Source: Acidimicrobiia bacterium
GTDB lineage: Bacteria; Actinomycetota; Acidimicrobiia; Acidimicrobiales; Aldehydirespiratoraceae
Length of the DNA stretch: 56,205 bases
Reading direction: 5' to 3'
NCBI GenBank assembly: GCA_024421095.1
Contig: JAHQYM010000005.1
Location: forward strand, 1-56,205
In this document: positions 1 to 49,462 of the stretch, piece after piece
How positions within the stretch are numbered: the stretch's first letter is position 1
Layout: every line of letters begins with the position of its first letter
Notes under the pieces: generated by a model
Told to the model about the DNA's origin: nothing
Seen by the model: the letters and a program-made list of their open reading frames with translations, nothing else
The model's database searches: none
Position numbers and translations under genes: made by a program

Positions 1-2
1 GA

Positions 3-419
3 ACAGGCAGAAACCTGAAAACCAGGCGAATCCCCGCAGTCCTCGATGCATGGCCGCTTGTCCGCTTCTGGGCGGGAGATACGCTGGTCCGAGCAGAGAT
101 ACATGAACTGCTGAAGGACCCCTTGCCAGTCTATGTGTGCAGCATCAACCTCGGCGAAGCCCACTACGTCATTTCCCGACGAGACGGTTTTTCGGCGGCC
201 GACGAGATCTGGAACTACTTCTGCCACAATGCCCAAGTGGAACCGCCAACGTTGGAGGTCACATACAACGCCGCGAGGCTGTCGCTCACTAGCCGCCTGC
301 CGTGGGCCGATGCCCACGCTGCGGCCACGGCATTGGCTTTCGGCGCAGAGGTCTGGGCAGGTGACAAGCACCTCAACAAGCCGGGGCCTTGGAAGCGACG
401 CGACCTGCGGAAGTTGTAA
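3..419 (+). CDS. VapC-like PIN-domain toxin, start unresolved
   Basis: The frame is open from the left edge to TAA at 417-419. It reads AVLDAWPLVRFW near the start, CSINLGEAHYVISRR in the middle and ADAHAAATALAFGAEVWAGD near the end. This is the PIN fold order with acidic residues at LDA, NLGE, ADAH and GD, so it is probably a metal-dependent RNase of a VapBC toxin-antitoxin pair. No ATG, GTG or TTG lies in frame before TTG at 123, and starting there would lose the first catalytic Asp. The real start is therefore CTG at 15 or upstream of the window. Another frame ends with TGA at 16-18, which could be the 3' end of the antitoxin gene. A six-pair hairpin (424-429 with 442-447) follows the stop and may end transcription. 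Confidence 0.7.
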   Translation, partial: TGRNLKTRRIPAVLDAWPLVRFWAGDTLVRAEIHELLKDPLPVYVCSINLGEAHYVISRRDGFSAADEIWNYFCHNAQVEPPTLEVTYNAARLSLTSRLPWADAHAAATALAFGAEVWAGDKHLNKPGPWKRRDLRKL

Positions 420-455
420 ACCAACCACTGGAAGGGTGGCAAGTGGTGGTTGAGA

Positions 456-803
456 GACGAGATTCTGTTCGTGCTTGTCGAGTGCCTGGCGCAGTCGGGT
501 GCGTGCTGCCCGCGCGGGATTGGCGGACTCTGAGCGGAGTGCCCTGCGGGGGTTCTCCGGCGGGGTCGGCTCCGCTCCCAACAGTAACCGCACGCCGCTG
601 AGTTGGTCCAGCGATTCAGCAAGCAGCGCATATCCGCCGACGTTGAAGTAGGCGGTGACAATATCGAGCGACGCACCGCCCACGAATCCGGTCGCCGCAT
701 GGGAAATGAACCCAGAGATGGCATCGGCGCCCCTTCGGTAGTCACTGTTGAACGCGAGTTCAGGTTTCACTGGCGACAGATTCTGATGGGCAGGGGCAGT
801 CAT
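456..803 (-). pseudogene. N-terminal fragment of a PLD-type helicase
   Basis: Reading from ATG at 803, the frame gives a methionine-led N-terminus with the stretch SLDIVTAYFNVGGYALLAES at about residues 45-65, then GVRLLLGAEPTPPE and LRQALDKHEQNLV. This is how large helicases with an N-terminal phospholipase-D-like domain begin; these are often encoded beside Eco57I-type methylases. Such proteins run to about 1,000 residues. Here the family resemblance stops near residue 116 (about 456), although the frame stays open to the window edge antisense to the vapC-like gene. The gene lies 31 bp behind the RAMA gene on the same strand, so it was probably the last gene of the restriction locus and has been cut off by rearrangement or a misjoin. 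Identification rests on family memory, not a search. Confidence 0.55.
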
Positions 804-834
804 CGCGGCAAGCCCCTGCCGTCTTTGGAGGACA

Positions 835-2232
835 TCACGCGCGCACCTCCCCGCCGTTCCAGAGTGCCGACGGTGTGACTAATTTCGTCGGAGACGCTGA
901 TTGGATCGGCGGAGCATTGCGGCCGTACATCTGGCGCCACTTGCTCAGGTGCCCTCGGTAGGACCTGAGGGTGCTCTCGGAGTATCCGTGGCCGTCAAGA
1001 AGCGCTTCGATGTCGCTCTCGCGGGGTTCGGCCGGATCGAGTTGCTCGGAGAGTGCGTACACAACCCACCTTCGCGCGATTGTTCTCCTTTCGTGCGCGC
1101 TCGACAGTGCGTAGCGATGGCCTTCGCCTGGAAAGTCGTCTGCGCGATACAACCAGCGCTTGGTGTCGATAGACGAACCGTCGACGAGCTTCCAGGCAGT
1201 CCAGCCGTTGGTGGATGCCCCCTCGCAAGCGGCCATCGCAGCACCGGAAAGACTGAGGTATAGGTCTCCCTCGAATTCGATCTGCCCGGTCGCAGTCACG
1301 GTCGCGGTGCGCTCAGATCCGAGGTGGTGAAGCGTAAGTTTGGTGCCGACACCAATGAATCCGGCTCCAAGGAGGTCAGCAACGGTGGGATCGGCTGCCT
1401 CTCCCATCCGACCCGTTGGACGCGGCGACGGCGCTACGACCCTGTCGACGGCATCGACCGAGGTGAACACTCCATCGAATGTCGTGTCGCTGCCATAAAG
1501 ATGCTGCCAATTGAGAAGATTGTTCCGATACACCGACAAGGTGGATTCCGAATAACCGTGGCCGCGCAGGAAGGCCTCTACCTCGACACTGGGTTCGGCC
1601 GGGTCAAGACGATTGGTGCGTGCATAATCAACCCATCTTCGGGCGATCCGTCGCATATCCTTTGCGGTGGAAGGAGCGTAGCGGTGACCTTCACCTGGAA
1701 AGGCGTCGGCTCGGAACAACCAACGTCGATCGTCGATAGGAGAGCCGTCGGAGAGCTTCCAAGCCGTCCAACCGTTGACGGACGCGCCCCCGCATGCGAC
1801 CTTCGCCGCGCCGGACGGACTGTCGTAGAGGTGGCCGTCAAATGCGATTCGTCCGTTCGCGGTCACGGTCGCAGTGCGCTCTGCACCGTGGTGGCGGAGC
1901 GCGAGCACGGTCCCCTCGTTGACGAAGCCGCCCGCAACGAGATCAACAAGGGTGGGATGGGCTGCCTCTCCCATCCGTCCAGATACACCCCAACGGGACG
2001 GCGTGACCGGTGCTGATGGTTGACCTGGACGCGTCGGTGTGTCTGGCTCGGCTTGTACGCCCGGCTCTGCATGCACGCACAGCGAAGAGAGTCGCTTGGC
2101 TGCAATCTGGGACAGCGGCGCGGTGTTGTCGCCGATATGCAGGTGGACCTCCGTGCCGTGTCTCGTGACGCGAAGGACCGAGCCGTCGATGCAACCGATC
2201 TGATCTACCGATTCATCGCTCACGCTACTCAT
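835..2232 (-). CDS. Protein with two tandem RAMA-domain modules
   Basis: This 465-residue protein is built from two copies of one module, residues about 85-248 and 274-437 (period about 189). Each begins GRMGEAA-PT, then carries AGF--GT-L-L, ERTATVTA-G-I-F, NGWTAWKL and RADDFPGEGHRYA, and ends in a helical part with IARRW, LDPAEP and HGYSEST. The first half of each copy matches the RAMA domain (restriction enzyme adenine methylase associated), thought to read DNA modification. The second half I do not recognise. Residues 1-80 are a separate N-terminal region ending in a Pro-rich linker. Its ATG overlaps the stop of the upstream target-recognition ORF (ATGA at 2229-2232), which implies translational coupling to the restriction-methylation gene. 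The modules are alike but clearly diverged, so the duplication is not recent. Confidence 0.7.
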   Translation of the reverse strand: MSSVSDESVDQIGCIDGSVLRVTRHGTEVHLHIGDNTAPLSQIAAKRLSSLCVHAEPGVQAEPDTPTRPGQPSAPVTPSRWGVSGRMGEAAHPTLVDLVAGGFVNEGTVLALRHHGAERTATVTANGRIAFDGHLYDSPSGAAKVACGGASVNGWTAWKLSDGSPIDDRRWLFRADAFPGEGHRYAPSTAKDMRRIARRWVDYARTNRLDPAEPSVEVEAFLRGHGYSESTLSVYRNNLLNWQHLYGSDTTFDGVFTSVDAVDRVVAPSPRPTGRMGEAADPTVADLLGAGFIGVGTKLTLHHLGSERTATVTATGQIEFEGDLYLSLSGAAMAACEGASTNGWTAWKLVDGSSIDTKRWLYRADDFPGEGHRYALSSAHERRTIARRWVVYALSEQLDPAEPRESDIEALLDGHGYSESTLRSYRGHLSKWRQMYGRNAPPIQSASPTKLVTPSALWNGGEVRA

Positions 2233-3041
2233 GCCAACCTCCTGAAGTTGTGAAGGACCGCGGCGTGGCGGTAGGTGTAGTCGACTGTTTCGCTGAAGGT
2301 CTCGTAGATCACGGCCAAGTCGTTTTCGTCGAGGCCGTAGAGGTGGGCGACGCAGGCGTCGAGTTCGCAGATTAGGTCCTGCTTGACGGTCTCATCGTTC
2401 GCAGAACCGACCGGCACTCCCACCTCGGCGGCCCATTCCGCAAACCTCTCATCAGCCGCCGCGAGCCGCCCCGCGATCTCAACCACCCGGTCTCGAACGG
2501 GGTGCCCCGTTCCGGGGTCGGGGATTGACAATTGGCCAAATTGTTCAAACGTCATGTGAAGTTCAACTGTGCGGCGTGCCTGCCAGTCATACGGCATGGA
2601 GCACAGAACTCCAATCACATACGCCTCGTCGCACGAAGTGCCCTCCGTGCGCAACAGGTACGGGGCTTGATTCACAATTACCCGATCTCTTGGCACAAGG
2701 GCGGAAACGAGGGTGCGCGTGTCTGTTGATCGGGCGACGTCACGAAACGCGATGCGTGCGCGTCGACACGGAAGCGTCGCCGGGTCGCCGCTGACTGCGT
2801 CATTCTGTTGGGCGAACGCTGAAGAGCGTGTGCGCCGCTGCGAGAACCGCTTCTTCTGAAGGGTGGCGATCATGGCTTCGGCCAGTGCGCTGTCGTAGTA
2901 GATGCCGGTGTCAGGTTCCCAGATGTTGAACGAACTGCCCTTGTAGACGGGCCAGACGTCACTGGGGTCAAGTGCGCGTTCGTCATTGCCGGCGCTTCCC
3001 GATACGGCGGAAGCAGACGAGGACGGAGTCGCGTCGCTCAT
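2229..3041 (-). CDS. Second target-recognition module (TRD-2) of the type IIG locus
   Basis: The ORF runs about 270 residues from ATG at 3041. It carries DVWPVYKGSSFNIWEPDTG near residue 35, APYLLRTEGTSCDEAYVIG in the middle, RRTVELHMTFEQFGQLSIP after that, and a helical end with CELDACVAHLYGLDENDLAV. These are hallmarks of the C-terminal DNA-recognition part of Eco57I-like restriction-methylation proteins, not of a free-standing enzyme. It is complete through the usual C-terminal helices and couples to the RAMA gene by ATGA. A near copy (TRD-1) lies directly upstream. The ribosome site before ATG 3041 is weak, so it may be made only by re-initiation or by read-through after a frame change. 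Confidence 0.65.
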   Translation of the reverse strand: MSDATPSSSASAVSGSAGNDERALDPSDVWPVYKGSSFNIWEPDTGIYYDSALAEAMIATLQKKRFSQRRTRSSAFAQQNDAVSGDPATLPCRRARIAFRDVARSTDTRTLVSALVPRDRVIVNQAPYLLRTEGTSCDEAYVIGVLCSMPYDWQARRTVELHMTFEQFGQLSIPDPGTGHPVRDRVVEIAGRLAAADERFAEWAAEVGVPVGSANDETVKQDLICELDACVAHLYGLDENDLAVIYETFSETVDYTYRHAAVLHNFRRLA

Positions 3042-3754
3042 CCCACTGCCCCGGCCGTCCGAACGTGTCGTACACAACGGTGATATCGTCCTCGTCGAGC
3101 CCATAGACGTAGGCGACGCACGCGTCGAGTTCCGCTAGCAGCCACGCCCCCCCCCCCCCCCCCCCCCCCCTCCTCCCCCCCGCGCTCTATTTCCGCGACC
3201 GGGATGCCGACTTCAGCGGCCCAACCGTAAAAACGATCATCCTGGGCCGCAAGCCGCGCGGCGACCTCAGCCACCCGGTCTCGAACGGGATGCCCTTTTC
3301 CAGGATCGGGAATCGAAAGTTGGCCGATCTGTTCGAACGTCATGTTCAACTCGACAGTTCTGCGTACCTGCCAGTCGCAAGGCATAGAGCAGAGGACACC
3401 GAGCACATACGCCTCATCAACAGCCGTGCCCGCTGTCCGCAAAAGATACGGGGCGTGATTCGTAATGACCCGGTCACCCGGTACAAGCGCGGCGATGAGA
3501 GAACGAGTATTTGTGGGATTCGTCACATTGCGGAATGCGATACGTGGATGTCGGCACGGAAGCGAAACAGGATCCTTGACAATATCGTCGTCTTGCTCCG
3601 CAAATGCCGAAGACCGCGTACGCCGTGACGACAACCGCTTCTCTTGAAGTGTCGCGATCATGTCTTCGGGCTCGGCGCTGTCATAGTACACGCCGGTATC
3701 AGGCTCCCAAAGGTTGAACGAAGTGCCCTTGTAGACGGGCCAGATGTCGCTCAT
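3038..3754 (-). pseudogene. First target-recognition module (TRD-1), frame lost at poly-G
   Basis: From ATG at 3754, preceded by an AGAGGT ribosome site at 3762-3767, this ORF encodes SDIWPVYKGTSFNLWEPDTG, APYLLRTAGTAVDEAYVLG and RRTVELNMTFEQIGQLSIP, closely matching TRD-2. After PVAEIERGG it enters the poly-G tract and leaves the family frame. The correct C-terminus (LLAELDACVAYVYGLDEDD and onward) continues in another frame and stops at TGA 2985-2983, overlapping TRD-2. Removing one G or adding two in the tract would restore the frame. The good start signal means a stand-alone TRD could be translated. Whether this is a switch, decay or a sequencing artefact cannot be told from the sequence. 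Confidence 0.6.
3147..3181. repeat. Poly-C tract (C24, TCCT, C7)
   Basis: Twenty-four C at 3147-3170, then TCCT, then seven C at 3175-3181. On the coding (minus) strand it is poly-G inside TRD-1, just before the last helical region. The length present puts the reading frame out of register; a loss of one or a gain of two would repair it. Confidence 0.95.
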
Positions 3755-3781
3755 TGCTCTTACCTCTGCGTCCCTCGCGCC

Positions 3782-3976
3782 GCAGCGCCGTCGTCGTTCA
3801 TGAATCGGAACCTGTCGTGGGTGGCATCGAACTCGCGGACTGGGCGGAAGCGCCATCGTCGTTCACGAATCTCTCCCGGTCGTGCGTCGCGTGGAACTCC
3901 GCGACTGGGCGGAAGCGCCATCGTCGTTGATGAACCGATGTCGGTCGGTGGTCGAGTTGAAGTCCCCCTGGACCGG
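3782..3976. repeat. Three imperfect 65-bp tandem repeats
   Basis: Copies start at 3782, 3847 and 3912. On the minus strand each encodes a version of WRFRPV-EF-AT-DR-RF-NDDG, the segment that normally precedes the WPVYKG recognition module. Because 65 is not a multiple of three, each copy is read in a different frame, and only the one nearest TRD-1 is useful to it. Between copies many changes preserve the peptide in its own frame, so they look like related alleles placed end to end, not a fresh slip duplication. Confidence 0.8.
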
Positions 3977-4477
3977 ACGGAACCGCCAGCCTCTCTGTGG
4001 GGGGGGGGGGCCCCGGCGGCCTGTTGGGGGGGGGGGGGGGGGCAAATCCATGCCGTCGAAGCGGGGATGACTCTTTATCTTGCGCCAAACTCGAAACGCG
4101 GGACGGGTCGGGATCTGAGGGAACGCGGCAGTGTTCGACCAGCTCGTGAACTCAGAGACTGGGATCAACTCGGGTTTGCCGTCCACCAACTCGTGAAACT
4201 GAGACAGTGAACTCGCAGGCCCCGGATAGATGGCAACCTGGGGCTCGTCGGGGTCGCCGTCAAAGCCACCCCCTCGGTTCAGCTCTGCGGTTGAGTTTTC
4301 GTACCGCGACGAGCGCGACCGTGTAGCGTCCGTCGACACCGTCGAACGCCCACGATCTGGTGTTGAGGCAGGTAACGACCGAGAGGATCGGGTGACCGCC
4401 AACAGCGCCACCGTGTAGGAGTTGTGGACCCCCTCGAACACCCATCCCTTGTGGTTGATGACGGTCGCCACCGACAT
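3863..4477 (-). pseudogene. Middle fragment of the type IIG restriction-methylation gene
   Basis: This frame begins VATVINHKGWVFEGVHNSYT and continues through ALLAV, the usual segment after the methylase domain. It later reads PGPASSLSQFHELVDG and EFTSWSNTAAFPQIP, then RKIKSHPRFDGM before the poly-C tract at 4042-3999 (coding strand) and the first of the 65-bp repeats. Between these parts lies a second, out-of-frame version of the first segment (VVTCLNTRSWAFDGVDGRYT) displaced by 92 bp, so the fragment is a patchwork. One extra G in the tract at 4487-4519 would join this frame to the upstream methylase ORF, and one fewer G near 4275 would join the second version to the downstream part. It has no convincing start signal of its own. 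Confidence 0.6.
3999..4042. repeat. Poly-G tract pair (G12 and G17)
   Basis: Twelve G at 3999-4010, a short GC-rich spacer (CCCCGGCGGCCTGTT), then seventeen G at 4026-4042. This pair is poly-G on the plus strand, opposite to the other two tracts. The overlapping minus-strand frame reads through it as proline codons without a break. Confidence 0.95.
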
Positions 4478-7476
4478 TCGCGGCGACCCCCCCCCCCCCC
4501 CGCCGCCCCCCCCCCCCCCGCGGCGTTCTTTGCACCGGACGACGGGGATTCCACGATCTCTTTGCGCCAGTTGGCCATACCGGCGTCAGACACCGCTGAA
4601 CGCGGCAGCACTATCCCGACTCTGCCGCCATCGCGGCACAGTGCGTAGTTCGCCCAGGAGAATGCCTTGTAGAGGTCGGTCTGACCCGATCCAAGGTTCG
4701 GAAACGTAGCTCTCAGGATCTTCTTCAACGCTTCAGCCCGTTCCCGCTCACCTTCGAACTCAACCGCGAGATCCGGTCGGTCGGACTCCAGCTCATCAAT
4801 TCGCGCCCGCCGCTTCGCCACCGGCAGCGCACGCACACCGGGCAGGTACATTCCCCACCAGACCTCGCGGTCTACCACTACCTTCTCCCACGGCGGATTG
4901 CCGAGCAGACAGTCGAAACCGCTTCGCTCGGAACGGGCGAAAACCTCGGGCCACACCGTCGGATAGTGGACAGGGGCTAGGCGCCGCACGGACGCTCGAA
5001 CCGCCGGCTCGTCCGCCGACCGGGCGACGCTCTCGGGGCTGAAATCGAAGTCGCGATGAATCTCTATGGCACCGGCGCGAACCGCAGTCGCAACATCGAA
5101 CACCGCCCTCACCGGTGCGACTGCTCCACGAGACTCGGTTTGGGCAGCCCGTGCCGCCTCAACCTCAGACTTGTCGGCATCGTTGAGCCGGCCAAGGCGC
5201 GCCAAAGGCTCCAGACACTCTTCCAACAGGGTCTCCAACTGATGCACGAACAGCGACGGCTCGGCCTTGCTTCCCTTCGGCCTCACCGCCGCGGCTGCAT
5301 CAGCCACCGATGCCACGCCGGTCAGGCTGTCTCCGTGAACGAGGTTGTGGTCGAGGAAAGACAGCGGCAGGCCCGGAACGAACGTATGCACCCAGATCGC
5401 CAGGCGGGCCAGTTCGACAGCGACACTGTTCTTGTCGACCCCATAGATGCAATGGCGGGCCACTTGGCGACGCAGCAGGGAACTGGACTCGATCTCGGCA
5501 CCATCGGCCAGATCACCCAGCGCGTCGAGCGCGGTGCTCCGCAGACGGATCAGTTCCGCGGTCACCGCGGTCACCGGATGCAACGTCAGCCAACCGGACA
5601 GGCGGGCCTCGATGCGGTCCACCGCAGCTACCAGGAAATGGGCCGAACCCATGGCGATGTCGGCGCAGCGGAAGTCGAAGAACGCCTCGGCGAGCGCAGC
5701 GTCGTCACCGGACTCCCGCAAGGTCTCAAGGCGCGCGATATGGTCGTCGAGAGCCGGTTCCAATGCGTTGTCGAGCAGGTATTCCACAGCGAACGGCTTG
5801 GTGAAGTAGGAGCCCGTGGCCTTGCGCACACCTGAGCGGTTGTGGAAATACACGTCACCGGCTTCTACCTCCACCTCGTCGTCATCGCCGGCGGGCACGA
5901 AATTCTCCTTGCCCTTCACGGACTTGACCGCGAGGTCGTCTTGGGCCACCGACAGTTTCGACTCCAGCAGGCCCTCATAGATGGTGCCGAAGTCCCTAAC
6001 CGACAGTTCACGAAAGTCCACCGGGCCGGACCCCTCCGGCCCCTCGTCCACCAACACCGCAGACAGGGCGGGGCCAAACTCGGCATTGCTGAGCTTGATA
6101 TCGGCAATCGCTGCGCCCGACAGGCTTACCTGCGGGTCACCAGAGAACAGGCCACCGTTGTAGGTGGGCACACCCCAGTCGCGGTTGCCCTGATCAACCG
6201 CATCCCAAAGCTGTTTCACGTCGTCCCACAGATCGGTCGCACCCGCATCGTAGTCGATCAGGCCTTTGTGTCGATCCTCTGCAAGCAGACGGGCCTTCCG
6301 CGACAACGAGTGGTCCGCGTAACGGCCGTTCGAGCGATAGGGCAACAGGTCCTTGTCCTCGGCATAGGCCACGAACAACAACCGAAAGAGGATCACCATC
6401 ACCTGCTCATAGGCACCGGCCAAGTCCGCCTCGGTCAAGCCGCTGCTAGCCGACGAAGACGAGAGTCGATCGGCCACTGCTCTGGCCAGGCTTGGCACGG
6501 TCTCGTGGTACACCCGCTCACGCAACCGCACAGCCAACGCGGCCACATAATCGGCTGACTTCTCGAGTATCTGCTCGAGTGAGCCGTTGTCGCTCAGGGC
6601 TTCGGCCGAGAACAACAAGTGGAGATAACCGGCGAACTCGGCGGGAACCAACGACAGGTTCAATTCAACGAAGGTCTCAGCGCGGCCCTTCCGGCCCACG
6701 CCCGTGTCGGGACGAGCGGCATAAAGGCGGATCTCTGACGAGCGGGTGAGGATCACCCAATCGACTCGCTCCTGGTCGGCCAGAGCAAGCGCCCGAGACA
6801 CGGGCGAGGTGCTGTCGAACCGGCCTGACGGTGCCTCGAAAGGCTCATCGTCATCACAAAACACCGCCACGGCGTGCTTGCGGTCATTGATCGTGAGCAT
6901 CTGCGCGTTGGTGGACAACGTCTCGACTCGGAACCCCAGCCCCTCCACCAAACGGCGCCCTCTTCGGCCCAGCAACCCTGCCGCCCTGCGGTTGGCCGAA
7001 AGCCAGTCGGGTCGGCAAGGAACACCGACTCTGAGCTCCTGGGTCGCCAGCAGCCCAACATTCCGCAGGCCCGGAAACGGGGAATCCAACTCTGAGACAG
7101 CCGCCAGCAGGAAGCGGGTGGCGGCATGGTGGCTGGGTTCGCTCAACGCAACTTCGGCCAATCTCTCGACCTGCGAAACTTCAAGGTTGTGGTACACGGT
7201 CGGAGGGTCGCCAACCGGGCCACACAGCGACACCCGCTCACCCTCAGCGGTGGGGTACAACGCAACCAGCAGCACGGGGCTGGCGCGGCCGGCCCGACGC
7301 TTCGACCATCCATCGCGCAGATCCGCCGCGGTGGGTTTGCGCCGTGCGTGAACCAGCGTCACTTCCAACCCGCTCGGCGCGTCCTGCACAAATACCCCAT
7401 GCGGAACGAGCGCCGACGGAAAACGTTCAGGCACCACCCAGGTTATTGGCTCACGACCCATCAGGAAGTCATCCAC
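4279..7476 (-). CDS. Type IIG-like (Eco57I family) endonuclease-methyltransferase, N-terminal and methylase part
   Basis: The frame runs 1,065 residues from GTG at 7476. Residues up to about 300 resemble the N-terminal nuclease-like region of these enzymes (AVAVFCDDDEPF; VDWVILTRSSEIRLYAA). A helical region follows, then TGSYFTKPFAVEYLLDNAL, the AdoMet-binding motif variant DIAMGSAHFL near residue 600, and the N6-adenine methylase motif NPPW at about residue 860. True family sequence ends at NWRKEIVES near residue 978. After that the frame passes the tract at 4519-4487 as Ala/Gly codons, and everything downstream (4279-4486) is out-of-frame noise. Such proteins normally run on through a recognition domain in one chain of 1,100-1,600 residues, so this one is truncated as read. 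It is the first gene of a minus-strand defence-type locus with the RAMA and helicase genes. Confidence 0.75.
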   Translation of the reverse strand: MDDFLMGREPITWVVPERFPSALVPHGVFVQDAPSGLEVTLVHARRKPTAADLRDGWSKRRAGRASPVLLVALYPTAEGERVSLCGPVGDPPTVYHNLEVSQVERLAEVALSEPSHHAATRFLLAAVSELDSPFPGLRNVGLLATQELRVGVPCRPDWLSANRRAAGLLGRRGRRLVEGLGFRVETLSTNAQMLTINDRKHAVAVFCDDDEPFEAPSGRFDSTSPVSRALALADQERVDWVILTRSSEIRLYAARPDTGVGRKGRAETFVELNLSLVPAEFAGYLHLLFSAEALSDNGSLEQILEKSADYVAALAVRLRERVYHETVPSLARAVADRLSSSSASSGLTEADLAGAYEQVMVILFRLLFVAYAEDKDLLPYRSNGRYADHSLSRKARLLAEDRHKGLIDYDAGATDLWDDVKQLWDAVDQGNRDWGVPTYNGGLFSGDPQVSLSGAAIADIKLSNAEFGPALSAVLVDEGPEGSGPVDFRELSVRDFGTIYEGLLESKLSVAQDDLAVKSVKGKENFVPAGDDDEVEVEAGDVYFHNRSGVRKATGSYFTKPFAVEYLLDNALEPALDDHIARLETLRESGDDAALAEAFFDFRCADIAMGSAHFLVAAVDRIEARLSGWLTLHPVTAVTAELIRLRSTALDALGDLADGAEIESSSLLRRQVARHCIYGVDKNSVAVELARLAIWVHTFVPGLPLSFLDHNLVHGDSLTGVASVADAAAAVRPKGSKAEPSLFVHQLETLLEECLEPLARLGRLNDADKSEVEAARAAQTESRGAVAPVRAVFDVATAVRAGAIEIHRDFDFSPESVARSADEPAVRASVRRLAPVHYPTVWPEVFARSERSGFDCLLGNPPWEKVVVDREVWWGMYLPGVRALPVAKRRARIDELESDRPDLAVEFEGERERAEALKKILRATFPNLGSGQTDLYKAFSWANYALCRDGGRVGIVLPRSAVSDAGMANWRKEIVESPSSGAKNAAGGGGAAGGGGGRRECRWRPSSTTRDGCSRGSTTPTRWRCWRSPDPLGRYLPQHQIVGVRRCRRTLHGRARRGTKTQPQS
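4487..4519. repeat. Poly-C tract pair (C15 and C14)
   Basis: Fifteen C at 4487-4501, GCCG, then fourteen C at 4506-4519. On the coding strand it is poly-G at the junction between the methylase domain and the next conserved segment. One added G would bring the downstream frame (MSVATVINHKGW) into register with the methylase ORF. A short direct repeat (GCCGCG) flanks the tract. Confidence 0.95.
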
Positions 7477-7640
7477 GAACTCAACATACTAATCGGGAAT
7501 TAAAGGAGCCTGCGCGTAAACGTGGAATTGGATTGCTGCAAGTGAGATACCGGTTAGCCAACTCATTCGGATTCCGCATCATTCAGCAATTCCGAGTGAG
7601 CAAACCCACAAATCCCCGTTGCTACAAGGCAAACTGGGGT

Positions 7641-8192
7641 ATGGCACGGATTGAGATCATTCCAGAAGACGCATGGGTCGGTACGCTTGCTGACCTTCAC
7701 CCGCGAGTCGCAGACCCCGTTACCGGGCAGGTCGACAATATCATGGCAGTTCATTCGCTGAACCCCCAAGGTATGGCAGCACATTTAGCCGTCTACGAGT
7801 CTGCGATGCGCGGCACCGCCACACTGCGCAAAGTGGAGCGTGAACTGATTGCGTTTGTGGTGAGCCTTACCAACGAATGCCATTATTGAGTGGTGCATCA
7901 TCGGCGTGGTCTGCGCCGCCTCATCAAGAATGACGAACTAGTGGCCGCCGTCGAAAACGACTGGCAAACCGCTCCGATATCCCCCAAACGCACCGCAATG
8001 CTGAATTTCGCAGTCAAACTCACGAATACTCCAGCAAAAATCACCGATGCCGACATATTCATGCTTAGGGAATCAGGGTTCAGCGACAGAGACATTCTCG
8101 ACATAGTCGAAGTGGTCAGCTACTACGCATATGCCAACCGCATCGCCGACGGATTAGGGATCAAGCTAGAAAACCCGAATGTCACACCCTAA
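7641..8192 (+). CDS. AhpD-like (carboxymuconolactone decarboxylase family) selenoprotein with in-frame UGA
   Basis: Read through TGA at 7887-7889, the gene encodes 183 residues, the usual length of peroxidase-related AhpD-like proteins. Codons 78-87 read NECHY-U-VVHH followed by RRGL, where relatives have CxxC-x3-H, so UGA (residue 83) stands for the second redox cysteine. The protein continues without a break through LNFAVKLTNTPAKITDADI and IVEVVSYYAYANRIADGLG to TAA. It should be a cytoplasmic thiol/selenol peroxidase or reductase. A hairpin after the UGA resembles a SECIS element (separate entry). The start ATG at 7641 has only a weak upstream GGGG. Without recoding, an 82-residue stub would be made. 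A point mutation is the alternative, but two other genes here show the same change. Confidence 0.8.
7887..7923 (+). promoter_or_regulatory. Candidate bacterial SECIS element in the AhpD-like gene
   Basis: Counting the U of UGA as 1, the hairpin CGGCG-UGGUCUG-CGCCG spans 16-32, with apical GGUCU at 22-26. In E. coli fdhF the loop also carries GGUCU at exactly 22-26. The base can pair further (UGAG 7887-7890 with CUCA 7920-7923), placing UGA in the foot of the stem as in known elements. Confidence 0.75.
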
Positions 8193-41585: not shown

Positions 41586-42704
41586 TCACGCTTCCACCAC
41601 AGCCAAGTGGTGATCGGCCAGATTCAACGGGTCGGGGCCACCATCGGTAGCAACAACAATGTCTTCAATACGCATGCCCCAACAGCCCGGCAGATAAATT
41701 CCGGGTTCCACAGAAAACGCATTCCCAGACACTAGCGGTTCTTGGTTACCTTCAATTATGTAGGGGTCTTCGTGCGCTTCGACACCAATCCCATGCCCTG
41801 TTCGGTGGATAAAATAACTGCCGAAACCAGCCGCGGTAATCCGCTGGCGAGCCGCTTGGTCCACTGCTTGGGCTGGCGTGCCAACTAGCGCTGATTTGAC
41901 TGCCGCGGCCTGCGCCTCATGCAACACAGCATAAGCCTCAAGATAATCACGATCGGGGGTTGCCCCTACCCAAACGCATCGCGTCAAATCGGAACAGTAA
42001 CCGACACCATCTGAACCGATCATCGTGCCGCCGAAGTCACACAACACTGCCTCGCCGGCAGCGATCTTGCGAGAACCCGCATGATGATGAGGGCTGGCCG
42101 CATTTTCGCCGGCCGCAACGATAGCGAAGTTGACACGGTCGTGTCCCTCAGCAAGAATTTGGCGGCCGAGTTCAGCCGAAACTTCAGCTTCCGTCTTGCC
42201 GATTAGAGGAATCTCCCCTCGCTGCAGTCGCCCGGCGATGGTATCTACGGCGCGGCTCGCGGTTCGCAAACGTTCGATTTCCTCAGCATCTTTCACCGCG
42301 CGGATGGCGCTGGTTATCGTGCTTGCACGCCGAAAGTTGGTATTTGGTTTTGCGGTCATCAAGTCAACAAGAAAACCCGACCAAGTTTGGTCGCCTAGCG
42401 CGGCGCTGGTTGCTTTACCCATCAACTCAGCGATTATCGCTATTGGGTCTTCGCTTTCCGCCCAGGGCCTCAACGCGAAAATTTCTGAATACGGAGTTAC
42501 GCGAGCCATTTCTAACTCGGGTACAACAAGCGTCGCTGCATCGTCACGGGGCACGACCAACATGGTGATTCGCTCCAGCGGCATCGCCTCGTATCCACAA
42601 AAATACGGTAGATCGGCACCAACCGACAAGAGCAGCAGATCAACCCCCTGTTGGGTCATTTGTGCTCGCGCATTGCCTAGTCTCTTGCTGAAACTCTTAG
42701 ACAT
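41586..42704 (-). CDS. Xaa-Pro aminopeptidase/dipeptidase (M24 family)
   Basis: 372 residues with the pita-bread metallopeptidase domain: VNFAIVAAGENAASPHHHAG, CDFGGTMIGSDGVGYCSDLTR (two metal Asp), HRTGHGIGVEAHEDPYI, and FSVEPGIYLPGCWGMRIED (metal Glu pair). It removes residues before proline. It overlaps the end of the lipBA gene by eight bases. Confidence 0.9.
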   Translation of the reverse strand: MSKSFSKRLGNARAQMTQQGVDLLLLSVGADLPYFCGYEAMPLERITMLVVPRDDAATLVVPELEMARVTPYSEIFALRPWAESEDPIAIIAELMGKATSAALGDQTWSGFLVDLMTAKPNTNFRRASTITSAIRAVKDAEEIERLRTASRAVDTIAGRLQRGEIPLIGKTEAEVSAELGRQILAEGHDRVNFAIVAAGENAASPHHHAGSRKIAAGEAVLCDFGGTMIGSDGVGYCSDLTRCVWVGATPDRDYLEAYAVLHEAQAAAVKSALVGTPAQAVDQAARQRITAAGFGSYFIHRTGHGIGVEAHEDPYIIEGNQEPLVSGNAFSVEPGIYLPGCWGMRIEDIVVATDGGPDPLNLADHHLAVVEA

Positions 42705-44376
42705 GGGCTAACGCAATTTCACTACGTCCGGAACTGTTGGGGCGCAACTGTTCTGCCGCTTGGCGGGCATGATAGCTCGACCGGGTCAACGGTGAGGATT
42801 CAACGTGGCCAATTCCGTGACGCTCACCAAAGCGCTTCCAATCATCAAAATCCTTGGGCTGCCACCACTGCGCCACTGGGAGATGCCGCACACTCGGACG
42901 CAAATACTGGCCGATGGTCACAATGTCGACACCAATCGCGGCCAGATCAACGAGTGTCTGACGCACTTCATCGTCGCGCTCTCCCATACCCACTATGACC
43001 GAAGATTTGGTCGTCAAACCGGCGGCTTTGGCGTGGGCCAAGACGGCTAGGCTGCGTGCGTAGCTAGCGGACGGACGCACCGCGCGTTGCAGGCGTGCCA
43101 CCGTCTCAATGTTGTGGTTGAAGACATCTGGTCGAGCGTCGAAAACTCGGGAAAGGGCAGCCAGGCAACCTTTGAAGTCGGAAACGAGAGTTTCGATTTG
43201 GCACTGCGGAACGCGGGCGCGGATCGCCTGCACTACATCGGCCACAGCAGCAGCACCGCCGTCGTCTAGATCATCTCTGGCCACCATGGTTACCACCGCG
43301 TGACGCAACGCCATCGACTCCACGGCTTGCGCCACGCGTTGAGATTCAGAGGGGGCGGGTGGTAGTGGCGCACGAGTGTCGACTAAGCAAAAGCCGCAAG
43401 CTCGGGTGCAACGTTCACCTAGGATCATGAAAGTGGCAGTACCGTCATTCCAACACTCTGAAATGTTGGGGCAGGCTGCTTCTTCGCATACGGTCACAAG
43501 CTTGAGATCGCGCAGCGTTGATTTGACACGCCGGTATTCGTTGCCAGGATCGAACTTTACCCGCAGCCATTCAGGTTTGCGGGAACGCACCGGCAAAGGT
43601 GCTTGGTCGGCAACGCCAGCTTGCGCGAGACGGCCCAGTAGACGCAGTGAGGTTCCTTCTGCTTGAGAAACGTAAGTTTCAGGCGGCAGGTATGGGCCTT
43701 GATCCGTGCGGTGGTTGCCTCGTGTTGCTTTGAAGCCAACGCTCGCATGGTCGACCGATTTGTGTTTGGCAAACACCTGCAGCGCCTTTTCGGTAAACAC
43801 CTCAACTATTTCGGGCATCGAAACACTTATGCCCAGTTCCGCTAATGAGGTGACACCTTTGTCGGCAATGCCGCAGGGCACGATCCGCTCAAACCAAGCC
43901 AAATCTGGGTTGACGTTTAGCGCCACTCCATGCATGGCACGCCCGCGTGAAATCCGCGCACCGATGGCCGCTATCTTTGCAGGTTCCGCCGCTCCAGTAT
44001 CAACCCACACCCCATGGCAACCCCTGAGCCGTTGCCCAACTACCCCAACATCGCCCAGACAGTCGATTAGAATTTGTTCAAGGGTGGCAACATACGCTGC
44101 GGTGTCGGCCATACCTCCACCACGCTGCCCCGGTACTTCAACAATGGGGTATGCAACCAATTGGCCTGGGCCGTGATAGGTCACATCACCGCCACGGTCT
44201 GTTTCGATAAGGTCGGCACCAAACGCTGCGATGTCGGCTAGGAGATGTGTGGGCGGGGTGCGCTTGGTGGTGGTTACCACATGCTGGTGTTCCATCAACA
44301 GCAGATACTCGTGTTGGCGATTGGCAAATAGGGCTCGCTGCAGCGCTAGTGCATCGCCATAAGCGACCCGCCCCAA
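42697..44376 (-). CDS. lipBA: Fused octanoyltransferase (LipB) and lipoyl synthase (LipA)
   Basis: One 559-residue frame. Residues 1 to about 215 are LipB: HQHVVTTTKRTPPTHLL, TDRGGDVTYHGPGQLVAYPI, IAAIGARISRGRAMHGVALN, and the catalytic Cys in IVPCGIADKGVTS. From about 260 it is LipA: auxiliary-cluster cysteines in CEEAACPNISEC, radical-SAM cysteines in CTRACGFC, NHNIETVARL, VGMGERDDEV, and RSSYHARQ near the end. A single chain would load octanoate on E2/H domains and insert sulfur. It follows the E2 gene by about 40 bp and couples to the peptidase gene. TTG 44376 is the shortest start; the frame is open back to CTG overlapping the E2 stop. Confidence 0.93.
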   Translation of the reverse strand: MGRVAYGDALALQRALFANRQHEYLLLMEHQHVVTTTKRTPPTHLLADIAAFGADLIETDRGGDVTYHGPGQLVAYPIVEVPGQRGGGMADTAAYVATLEQILIDCLGDVGVVGQRLRGCHGVWVDTGAAEPAKIAAIGARISRGRAMHGVALNVNPDLAWFERIVPCGIADKGVTSLAELGISVSMPEIVEVFTEKALQVFAKHKSVDHASVGFKATRGNHRTDQGPYLPPETYVSQAEGTSLRLLGRLAQAGVADQAPLPVRSRKPEWLRVKFDPGNEYRRVKSTLRDLKLVTVCEEAACPNISECWNDGTATFMILGERCTRACGFCLVDTRAPLPPAPSESQRVAQAVESMALRHAVVTMVARDDLDDGGAAAVADVVQAIRARVPQCQIETLVSDFKGCLAALSRVFDARPDVFNHNIETVARLQRAVRPSASYARSLAVLAHAKAAGLTTKSSVIVGMGERDDEVRQTLVDLAAIGVDIVTIGQYLRPSVRHLPVAQWWQPKDFDDWKRFGERHGIGHVESSPLTRSSYHARQAAEQLRPNSSGRSEIALAHV

Positions 44377-44417: not shown

Positions 44418-45899
44418 TCAGCGGACTTCAGCCTCCCAGTCGCGGCTTTCAATAATCTCTTTGATGCGATGCAGAAACGCTGCTGCATAAGCACCGTCGA
44501 ATGCGCGATGATCCCAAGCCATCGCTAACACTCCTACCGAGTGTATGGCTATCGATTCGTTACCATAATTGTCGGTTACCACTACCGGTTTGCGACTTAC
44601 TCCATCGGTTGAAAGGATCGCCACTTGAGGTTGATTGATGATAGGGAACTGCATCATGGTGCCGTATTGACCGGCATTGGTAAGCGTGAAAGTTCCACCG
44701 CTGAGTTCATCGGGTAATAGTTGTTTGCTGCGCGCCCTCGCTGCTATATCCACGATGTCACGTGCTATTTGACGCAGACGTTTACCCTCGGCACCTTTGA
44801 TCACGGGTGCGAGTAGTCCATTAAAGTCGATGTCTACAGCGACACCAAGATTCACTTCATCGTGGACGACTAGATGGTCGCCTCCGAAACTAGCATTGAG
44901 ATGCGGGAAGTCCCGTAATGCGTCTACTAGGGCGCGGGCGATGAACGGTAGGTAGGTGAGGCTGAATCCCTCTGCCGTTTTCCACGCCGATTTCAAGGTT
45001 CGGCGCACGGTTTCAACACCCTCATAATCAATTTCCATTGCGGTCAACACATGCGGCGATGTGGCTTTGGAGGCGACCATGTGCTCTGCTGTGCGTTTAC
45101 GAATGTTGTTGAGCGCTACCACTTGGCCACGCGTTTGTACTTCGGTTGAAGTCATTGCGGTTGGACTAGTTGGAGGTTGCGGCATCACTATTTGTGTTGG
45201 TGCGGGTGTTGCGTGTTGCGTTGCTGGATCCGCGACTAGCGGTTGGGCAGGAGTCGGTTCAGGTTGCGCCGACGAAGGTGCGGGTTGTGCCGCTATCGGT
45301 GCGGGTTGTGCCGCTATCGGTGCGGGTTGTGCCGGTGCGGTTACAGGTGCGGGTTGTGAACGGATCACTGCTTCAACATCGGCTCGGGTGATTCGTCCAC
45401 CTATGCCAGTGCCAGCAATAGCGGATGGGTCAAGGTCGTAGTCGTTAATAAGGCGTCGCACCACAGGAGAAATCAGCGCGCTTAGACCCGAACGCACAGA
45501 TGATTCTTCAACAGTTTGCGATGCGGAAACCGGTGTTGTCGGTGGTTGGGTTGGCAACGGTTGAGGATGCGACAGGGCAGGCTCAAGCGGGGCTTGCGCC
45601 GGTTCTTCGAACACCGAAGCGGGCTCCGCTGCCGGTTCAGCGGTAGCCGAACGATTTGCCTCGCTGGCATCTTCAATGCGAGCGAGGACTTGACCAACCT
45701 CAACCGTGTCGCCCTCGTCGGCGAGAATTTCAGTCAACGTGCCGGCTCTCGGCGATGGCACTTCTGAGTCAACTTTGTCGGTGGAAACCTCAAAGAGGAT
45801 TTCATCCATTTCCACATGGTCGCCAAGTTGTTTGAACCAGCGATTTATCGTTCCTTCGGTGACTGTTTCACCTAACTGTGGCATCATCACATCAGCCAT
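44418..45899 (-). CDS. sucB: 2-oxoacid dehydrogenase E2 (dihydrolipoamide acyltransferase)
   Basis: 493 residues from MADVMMPQLGETV (ATG 45899). Lipoyl domain at 1-75 with modified Lys42 in STDKVDSEVPSP; E3-binding domain near 140-175 (VVRRLINDYDLDPSAIAGTG); a linker with repeated PAPIAAQ units; catalytic core with DHRAFDGAYAAAF. In actinobacteria this E2 serves pyruvate dehydrogenase and often the 2-oxoglutarate complex. It stands between lpd (30 bp upstream) and lipBA, so the scaffold, its E3 and its lipoylating enzyme are co-expressed. Confidence 0.93.
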   Translation of the reverse strand: MADVMMPQLGETVTEGTINRWFKQLGDHVEMDEILFEVSTDKVDSEVPSPRAGTLTEILADEGDTVEVGQVLARIEDASEANRSATAEPAAEPASVFEEPAQAPLEPALSHPQPLPTQPPTTPVSASQTVEESSVRSGLSALISPVVRRLINDYDLDPSAIAGTGIGGRITRADVEAVIRSQPAPVTAPAQPAPIAAQPAPIAAQPAPSSAQPEPTPAQPLVADPATQHATPAPTQIVMPQPPTSPTAMTSTEVQTRGQVVALNNIRKRTAEHMVASKATSPHVLTAMEIDYEGVETVRRTLKSAWKTAEGFSLTYLPFIARALVDALRDFPHLNASFGGDHLVVHDEVNLGVAVDIDFNGLLAPVIKGAEGKRLRQIARDIVDIAARARSKQLLPDELSGGTFTLTNAGQYGTMMQFPIINQPQVAILSTDGVSRKPVVVTDNYGNESIAIHSVGVLAMAWDHRAFDGAYAAAFLHRIKEIIESRDWEAEVR

Positions 45900-45928
45900 A
45901 ATTTTTCCCTTCAAAGCCCGAGACTATT

Positions 45929-47332
45929 TTATCCATGCAGCGAACGACCGGTTAGCGACAACACAGTCTCACCAAAGATTTCACTCATGGTGGGATGCGG
46001 TTGAATAAAAGCGGCAACATCATCCACCGTTGCTTCCCAATTGACGGCCAAGTATGCCTGTCCTAGTTGCTCAGTCACCCAAGGCCCAACCATATGCACA
46101 CCCAAAATTTGCCCCCCCGTGCCATCAGGGTTTTTCTCAGCAATGACTTTCACTAGGCCGTCGGTATCGCCCACGATTTTCGCTCGACCGCTACCGATAA
46201 AACGGTTAGCAGCTGTAACCACCTGATAGCCTGCTGCTCGCGCAGATTCTTCGGTGTGGCCAGCGAAAGCGACCTCAGGGTGGCAATAGATGCACCACGG
46301 CGTTCGTTGGTGGTCTAGTGGCAAAGGTTCTTCACTCAACGAATCGGTGACCGCCAACATTCCCTCAGCAAATGCAACATGAGCAAGTTGCGGTGTGTTG
46401 ATCAGGTCGCCAATGGCCCATACGTTGGGCTCGGCCGTACGACAACGGTCATCCACCTCAACGAAACCCCGTTCGTCAACACCAACCGCTGTGCCAACCA
46501 AGCCCAAATGTTCAGAATTGGGGCGACGCCCAACCGACACCACAACCAAGTCTACGTCTAGGGAGTTGCCATCGCCGAAAGTAACGGTGGTGTTTTGCCC
46601 TGCGGGGTCGGGGGTGTGGCCTTGAACTGAAGCCGAGGTGTAGACAGTAATCCCACGTTTCTTGAAACTGCGTGCCAAGACCTTGACGGCATCTCGGTCG
46701 CAGCCGTTGAGGATTTGCGGTAGCGCTTCAATGACCGAGACTTTCACGCCCAAGTCTGACATCATTGAGGCGAACTCGACACCGATCGCGCCACCGCCTA
46801 TCACTGCCGCACGCTGCGGTAGAGCTTGGATGGACAACAATTCGTCTGATGTCATGACTAGGCGGCCGTCAACTTCAAAACCTGGAATCGTGCGCGGCAA
46901 CGATCCCGTAGCCAAAATTACTGACGAAGCGGTGAGGGTTTGTTGGTCGGTGGCGCGATGTACTGTTACCACACGGTTGGCCCCCAAACTGCCGACTCCG
47001 TTATAGACGGTTACTTTGCGACCCTTTAGTAAATGTTCGAGCCCAGCAACGAGTTGATCAATGACGGTCTGCTTGCGCCGCATGGTGACACCCCAGTTGA
47101 GTTGCGGGGCTTCGGTCTCAACACCGAATTCGCTAGCGCGCGATACCGTGCGAAAAACGTGCGCCGTCTCCAACAACTCTTTCGCGGGAATGCAGCCAAC
47201 GTGCAAACAAGATCCGCCGACTTTGGCTTTTTCTACTAGGCCCACATTGAGCCCGATACCTGCTCCGTAGAGTGCGGCGGCGTAACCGCCAGGACCGCCA
47301 CCTATGACGATTAGATCGTGTTGTGTATTGAT
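45929..47332 (-). CDS. lpd: Dihydrolipoamide dehydrogenase (E3), apparent ATC start
   Basis: 467 residues if begun at ATC 47332. The N-terminus then reads (M)NTQHDLIVIGGGPGGYAAAL, the proper FAD-binding start. The redox pair is GGSCLHVGCIPAKELL, the NAD site AAVIGGGAIGVEFASMMSDL, and the catalytic His-Glu is HPTMSE near the end. GGGAGG sits seven bases before the ATC and an in-frame TGA lies six codons upstream, so no standard start is possible without losing the FAD motif. It re-oxidises the lipoyl groups of E2. Confidence 0.92.
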   Translation of the reverse strand: MNTQHDLIVIGGGPGGYAAALYGAGIGLNVGLVEKAKVGGSCLHVGCIPAKELLETAHVFRTVSRASEFGVETEAPQLNWGVTMRRKQTVIDQLVAGLEHLLKGRKVTVYNGVGSLGANRVVTVHRATDQQTLTASSVILATGSLPRTIPGFEVDGRLVMTSDELLSIQALPQRAAVIGGGAIGVEFASMMSDLGVKVSVIEALPQILNGCDRDAVKVLARSFKKRGITVYTSASVQGHTPDPAGQNTTVTFGDGNSLDVDLVVVSVGRRPNSEHLGLVGTAVGVDERGFVEVDDRCRTAEPNVWAIGDLINTPQLAHVAFAEGMLAVTDSLSEEPLPLDHQRTPWCIYCHPEVAFAGHTEESARAAGYQVVTAANRFIGSGRAKIVGDTDGLVKVIAEKNPDGTGGQILGVHMVGPWVTEQLGQAYLAVNWEATVDDVAAFIQPHPTMSEIFGETVLSLTGRSLHG

Positions 47333-48550: not shown

Positions 48551-49462
48551 ATGCGGGTACTAATCAGCGGTTCTAGCGGTTTGATTGGGGCGGCCTTGCT
48601 TGAAGCTTTGCAGGTCACAGCACATACTCCAATCCGCTTGTTGCGCACCCCCACCCAGAGCCAGGCGGAAAGCATTGTTTGGGATCCCGAAAAGGCGCAT
48701 CTGCCCGACGATGCCCTAAATAACATTGATGCGATCGTCCATCTAGCCGGTGAACCAATCGCCGCGAAGCGTTGGAGCGAAGCTCAGAAACGAAAAATAC
48801 TCCAAAGCCGAACGTCCACAACTAAACTATTAGCAACGGCCATCAGTGAAGCTGCCTCGCCACCATCAGTGTTTCTTTCGGGCTCCGCGATAGGGATTTA
48901 CGGCAACCGAGGCGACGAGCAACTCAATGAAATCAGCTCACGCGGTGAAGGTTTTCTTGCCGATGTGGTACGCCAATGGGAGCAGGCTGCTTGCGTTGCA
49001 AAAGAACACACACGCCTCGCGTATTTGCGTACCGGCGTAGTATTGTCGGACAAAGGTGGCGCGCTCAAAACCCAGTTGCCTTTCTTTCGGTTAGGAATCG
49101 GCGGGCGGATCGGCAGCGGCAACCAATGGCTCAGTTGGATCTCAATCCAAGACACAGTGCAAGCAATCATTTGGCTGTTAGACAACGATGTTAGTGGCCC
49201 GGTAAACCTCTGTTCCCCCAACCCGGTGACCAACGCCGAGTTCACCAAGGCGCTTGGTCAAGCCGTCGGTCGCCCCACGTTTCTGCCCACACCCAAACTT
49301 GCTACTTGGGCAAAAGTCGGCCCAGAACTAGCCGAAGAGCTACTCTACACTAGTCAAAAAGTTGATCCTGCTGCGCTACTAACCGCCGGTTACACGTTCC
49401 TCTATCCACATTTGGAACCCGCCTTGCGGAACACCCTCAGCGGTAGCGGTGCGCCAAGGTGA
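48551..49462 (+). CDS. TIGR01777-type nucleoside-diphosphate-sugar epimerase
   Basis: 303 residues of the short-chain dehydrogenase/epimerase fold: RVLISGSSGLIGAALLEAL (NAD-binding), IDAIVHLAGEPIAAKRWSE, SGSAIGIYGNRGDE, LRTGVVLSDKGGALKTQLP, and WISIQDTVQAIIWLL. The SulA/YfcH subgroup of unknown substrate. GGAGG stands before ATG 48551. Confidence 0.87.
   Translation: MRVLISGSSGLIGAALLEALQVTAHTPIRLLRTPTQSQAESIVWDPEKAHLPDDALNNIDAIVHLAGEPIAAKRWSEAQKRKILQSRTSTTKLLATAISEAASPPSVFLSGSAIGIYGNRGDEQLNEISSRGEGFLADVVRQWEQAACVAKEHTRLAYLRTGVVLSDKGGALKTQLPFFRLGIGGRIGSGNQWLSWISIQDTVQAIIWLLDNDVSGPVNLCSPNPVTNAEFTKALGQAVGRPTFLPTPKLATWAKVGPELAEELLYTSQKVDPAALLTAGYTFLYPHLEPALRNTLSGSGAPR

Follow-up and report, generated by a model that had tools for sequence, protein, structure and literature searches.

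A fused octanoyltransferase–lipoyl synthase gene behind the E2 and E3 genes of Acidimicrobiia, almost certainly encoding a bifunctional protein

Octanoyltransferase (LipB) and lipoyl synthase (LipA), which act in successive steps towards the vitamin-like cofactor lipoate, are generally encoded by separate genes, and an open frame that carries both raises the question of whether it is a genuine gene for one bifunctional protein and, if so, how it arose and what the fusion would bring. The frame lies in a window (the whole stretch of DNA analysed, 56,205 nucleotides) from an Acidimicrobiia assembly (GCA_024421095.1, contig JAHQYM010000005.1). It runs from 44376 to 42697 on the minus strand (42697..44376); with the listed TTG as start, the protein has 559 residues, and from stop to stop the frame has 576, while the plus-strand translation of the same region has stops throughout. 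The LipB octanoyltransferase domain (PF21948) occupies 43786..44361 and the LipA lipoyl synthase domain 42742..43587, both on the minus strand; in the protein, Pfam places LplA-B_cat at residues 6-197, LIAS_N at 264-302 and Radical_SAM at 317-475. Against NCBIfam, the LipA half scored 362.7 bits with TIGR00510 lipA (curated cut-off 310.25), and the LipB half scored 183.5 bits with NF010925 LipB (cut-off 155) and 129.3 bits with TIGR00214 lipB (cut-off 83.55). By sequence, the halves match Mycobacterium tuberculosis LipB (1w66) and LipA (5exi), and by predicted fold they match LipB 1w66 and 2qhs and LipA 5exk. The single uninterrupted LipB and LipA frame of the original prediction is therefore upheld, both halves lying above curated equivalog cut-offs. 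The protein is almost certainly bifunctional.

A bifunctional protein should keep the active-site residues of both enzymes. We compared alignment columns in 120 fused rows, comprising 110 distinct rows from the class and 10 from elsewhere, after duplicates had been dropped. The residues followed were those that we take, from family knowledge, to be catalytic or cluster-binding. In LipB, these are the catalytic lysine Lys134 (43975..43977) and the catalytic cysteine Cys168 (43873..43875); in LipA, they are the auxiliary cluster motif C297-x4-C302-x5-C308 (CX4CX5C, 43453..43488) and the radical-SAM cluster motif C323-xxx-C327-xx-C330 (CX3CX2C, 43387..43410), all on the minus strand. Each of them is present in the fusion, as had been proposed for the LipB cysteine and both sets of iron-sulfur cysteines, and in 110 out of 110 class rows, and none of these eight residues varies anywhere in the 120 rows. 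The fusion also has the C-terminal LipA motif R532-S533-S534-Y535 (42772..42783, minus strand), whose Arg-Ser-Ser is found in 107 out of 110 class rows (the remaining three have gaps) and in 10 out of 10 rows outside the class; the tyrosine that follows is kept in 98 out of 110 rows of the class, and 9 have His or Phe in its place.

The genome of the window (2.7 Mb, 98% complete, 231 contigs) matches the fusion protein once and carries neither lipA nor lipB as a gene of its own. The fusion is also its sole PF21948 protein, no second one having been found, while a second, weaker PF21948 protein occurs in 11 out of 12 relatives examined. Apart from the fusion, no attachment enzyme was thus found in this assembly, which is less than 100% complete. 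One GcvH and two acyltransferase-domain genes were detected in the same genome, the second of the latter matching within a 1225-aa frame. Decay of one half, leaving the other alone functional, is very improbable and was rejected, since every tested residue of both halves is kept, relatives showed no loss of catalytic residues and the genome has no other copy of LipA or LipB.

Joining of two genes by an assembly artefact or a frameshift also had to be weighed, as the window comes from an assembly in 231 contigs. We sampled 198 genomes of the class, designated Acidimicrobiia after the record titles of its named loci; 189 of them had a match and 9 had none. Both complete domains lay in one open frame in 178 out of 198 genomes, were joined in one frame of an incomplete gene in 7 (G100, G156, G210, G204, G184, G135 and G219) and were cut by contig ends in 4 (G143, G193, G237 and G152). 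Nine matches that span both domains but contain a stop within the alignment (G196, G224, G222, G205, G141, G093, G147, G128 and G161) were re-read, and all nine have both domains in one ORF, as does a tenth such match (G243, locus L124). The LipA matches of L028 and L124 are full, each extending over two stretches. The closest relatives of the window's fusion are 72-74% identical to it, and the differences from one class locus (L031) at the three codon positions are.21/.15/.54 in LipB,.40/.29/.67 in the linker and.16/.12/.56 in LipA. The differences are of the coding type in all three parts, so that 43500-43700 conceals neither a frameshift nor a lost stop. A sequencing error across that stretch, which could have undone the original prediction, is thus contradicted by the shared open frame and the coding-type changes in the linker. 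Nor did sister genomes undo it, as separate-only lipB and lipA genes at the fusion site were found in none of the 189 class genomes with a match. We therefore rejected an artefact or frameshift, whose probability is negligible given the class-wide open frame and the pattern of codon changes.

Two records in the class sample deserve mention in their own right. One genome (G110, locus L218, G110:C83) carries, in addition to the fusion, a second, divergent and unfused lipB-lipA pair beside an E2-like gene, which may stem from contamination or transfer. Another locus (L041), with the record title of a Bifidobacterium breve MAG, has an Acidimicrobiia-type fusion; a 54% identity of this fusion to that of the window over the best segment justified its place among the class rows, and the title is probably wrong.

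The surroundings of the gene point to its likely main substrate. The order is E3, E2, fusion and M24 peptidase, on one strand and with short or overlapping junctions: the E3 (dihydrolipoyl dehydrogenase) gene at 45929..47332, the E2 gene, with one lipoyl domain, at 44418..45914 (probable ATG at 45899), and the M24 peptidase gene at 41586..42704, which overlaps the fusion stop by 8 bases, all on the minus strand. The proposed position directly behind the E2 and E3 genes is confirmed by this consecutive arrangement. Among 20 class loci (L031-L050), E2 lies upstream of the fusion in all 20, E3 lies upstream of E2 in all 15 that have enough sequence, and the M24 gene lies downstream in 12. An epimerase-like gene (48551-49462, plus strand) is located upstream on the opposite strand, likewise in L031, L037, L038, L044, L045 and L049, and in L212 and L213 a relative immediately precedes lipB in the same orientation. 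The G+C content of the window is 0.61-0.65 at 1-8000 and about 0.50-0.58 elsewhere.

The junction with E2 bears on where translation of the fusion begins. No ATG, GTG or TTG precedes 44376 in the fusion frame. A CTG at 44419..44421 (minus strand) overlaps the E2 stop by four bases, CTGA (44418-44421). Of 57 loci, counted after four near-duplicate loci on the same contigs had been dropped, 38 showed an NTGA overlap in the reading frame of the fusion (CTGA in 27, ATGA in 5, GTGA in 5 and TTGA in 1). Since this overlap is common, CTG is likely to be the fusion start in the window's group, and a start at 44421 is more likely than one at the TTG at 44376. The overlap would then represent probable translational coupling of E2 and the fusion.

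The E3 gene appears to have an unusual start as well. The window has no ATG, GTG or TTG between the upstream TGA and the FAD-binding motif, and the probable start is an ATC at 47330-47332 (minus strand; first base 47332), 7 bases behind GGAGG; in relatives, this position is taken by ATA or ACG, preceded by strong ribosome-binding sites. We scored a start as near-cognate when it had a ribosome-binding-site match of 5-9 bases and no standard start had a match of at least 5. This applied to 23 out of 49 class loci in which the motif was found (ATC, ATA, ACG or one CTG), a count from which two unclear loci (L237 and L264) were left out and five near-duplicates dropped, and in which loci of the same family are not independent. 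The remaining loci have GTG, ATG or TTG there, or no clear start, and in many of the ACG cases a GTG inside the ribosome-binding site itself may be the E3 start. E3 would be a central metabolic gene with a conserved weak start, and the open-licence literature searched yielded no report of near-cognate start codons in E3 genes.

Outside the class, the two genes are mostly apart. A sample of the phylum comprised 296 genomes, 241 of them with a match, and among the matches listed none outside the class reaches across both domains free of stops. None of the 19 outside-class regions read by ORF is fused: in 16, lipB and lipA are separate and usually adjacent, and in 3, lipA is alone in the stretch. 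In L201, a single TGA lies between the lipB frame and the lipA frame. LipB and LipA are normally separate, as the original prediction says, but in Acidimicrobiia fusion is the normal state.

Further fusions were found in four Desulfobacterota-type loci (L064, L066, L069 and L071; L069 is titled only Deltaproteobacteria) and in two gammaproteobacterial MAGs (L065 and L070). The four of these that were tested (L066, L071, L065 and L070) all passed the TIGR00214 LipB cut-off. In the Desulfobacterota, the phylum of L066, a full-length fusion is present in 5 out of 148 genomes, including that of L066, and several fusion-bearing genomes have separate copies too. E2 and E3 precede the fusion in all four Desulfobacterota-type loci and in neither of the two gammaproteobacterial ones. 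One further candidate (G632) was rejected, as its DNA shows separate ORFs despite lipB and lipA matches with a 575-aa open frame.

Phylogenies of the two halves were used to assess the relationships among these fusions. The LipA tree, built from 59 rows selected among the available loci, places the class rows in one group within Actinomycetota (SH-aLRT 83), the Desulfobacterota fusions with Desulfobacterota and the gammaproteobacterial ones with Gammaproteobacteria. The class rows do not form one clade in the LipB tree, where they need two changes. Both trees require at least four changes between the fused and separate states, counted without direction. Holding the 36 fused rows together was rejected by AU tests on quick trees, with two trees per test (P=4.7e-64 for LipA and 3.7e-8 for LipB), and one common origin of all fusions is accordingly rejected for both halves. 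The fusion arose separately in a few other bacteria. Given the non-monophyly of the class rows in LipB and the 83% support of the LipA clade, a single origin within Acidimicrobiia is likely rather than proven. In the simplest account, lipB and lipA were in-frame neighbours in an early ancestor of the class, where they probably already stood behind an E2 gene, and the stop that parted them would have been lost.

How the two halves would work together depends on the segment that joins them. The inter-domain linker (residues 206-263; 43588..43761, minus strand) varies in length from 19 to 209 residues in the class (median 54, 110 distinct rows), and its sequence is scarcely conserved; in eight distinct Desulfobacterota-type fusions, linkers are only 6-10 residues long. 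An AlphaFold model of the fusion, from an alignment of 27 rows, had a mean pLDDT of 84.6 and a pTM of 0.58, with pLDDT below 50 at residues 213-241, which are predicted to be disordered, and in the last 13 residues. The low-confidence segments and the pTM value leave the placement of the domains unfixed, and a linker that is disordered, unconserved and so variable in length makes a rigid channel between the sites unlikely.

Our main reading, to which we assign a probability of about 0.86, is one bifunctional protein that performs both steps of lipoyl assembly, with flexibly tethered halves and an origin by loss of an ancestral stop. The LipB half would transfer octanoate from acyl-carrier protein, via Cys168, to E2 or GcvH, on the lysine of the apo-lipoyl domain, and the LipA half would insert two sulfur atoms, using radical-SAM chemistry and its auxiliary [4Fe-4S] cluster. 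The halves would act as autonomous domains joined by a flexible linker, and the gain, if any, would most likely lie in equal dosage of the two steps and closeness to the E2 translated from the same transcript. A single chain would set the ratio of the two activities and hold the second site close to the first. We infer this chemistry, the role of GcvH as a second substrate and any advantage from family membership. Separate proteins may arise through post-translational cleavage or through translation that begins internally at the LipA half.

The explanations differ on the benefit of the fusion. The original prediction envisaged channelling of octanoylated E2 from the first site to the second; in such channelling, the octanoylated domain would go straight from LipB to LipA within one molecule and never be released. 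The steps are indeed consecutive on one carrier-bound substrate, the fusion is recurrent and its gene adjoins E2, but the substrate is itself a mobile domain and the disordered, variable linker and the pTM value leave channelling unsupported; we consider it unlikely, although proximity through tethering is possible. We are equally doubtful of a wider version, in which LipB-LipA fusions are a recurrent, dedicated E2-side enzyme that charges and matures the neighbouring E2 by hand-over on the same molecule. Neutral streamlining of the operon, by contrast, comes close to even odds without reaching them. It challenges an advantage and not bifunctionality: the stop would have been lost, and the fused protein would be no better than two and inherited with the class. 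The separate, neighbouring genes outside the class, with those of L201 one stop apart, fit it, as does the freedom of the linker to change in both length and sequence, while the absence of any reversion to separate-only genes among the 189 class genomes with a match and the separate origins elsewhere, with four Desulfobacterota-type loci likewise behind E2 and E3, speak against it. A neutral origin is supported as well as any advantage. Tethered domains serving the E2 encoded upstream, and GcvH, fit the observations best.

Known systems provide comparisons. Separate LipB (TIGR00214/NF010925) and LipA (TIGR00510) proteins, such as those of M. tuberculosis (1w66 and 5exi-5exk), share families, folds and residues with the fusion, but they are two chains, whereas Acidimicrobiia have one. 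The bifunctional lipoate--protein ligase/lipoyl synthase family NF053790 (LplA_LipA_fuse) likewise has a lipoyl-attachment enzyme N-terminal to LipA; its first half is a ligase, whereas here it is a LipB transferase, and our protein reached 338.3 bits (cut-off 800), aligned over the LipA part only (model positions 330-605). Lipoate--protein ligase LplA requires an accessory LplB-type C-terminal domain; Pfam gave no hit to this domain at E <= 0.001, and the protein does not classify as LplA. According to an extract of PMC10332631, Lpl(AB) and Lpl(BA) are also gene fusions of the lipoate pathway, uniting the catalytic and accessory domains of one ligase and not, as here, two successive enzymes. 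Our search of the open-licence literature turned up no account of a LipB-LipA fusion, and the NCBIfam release used shows no model for the pair. So far as found there, the fusion appears undescribed, while fusion of successive pathway enzymes is of a known kind.

For annotation, these results imply that surveys in which lipA and lipB are counted as two genes can miscall the whole class Acidimicrobiia. For the biology of lipoylation, the fusion would represent a natural one-chain form of a two-step pathway, and thereby a direct test bed for the hand-over of lipoyl domains.
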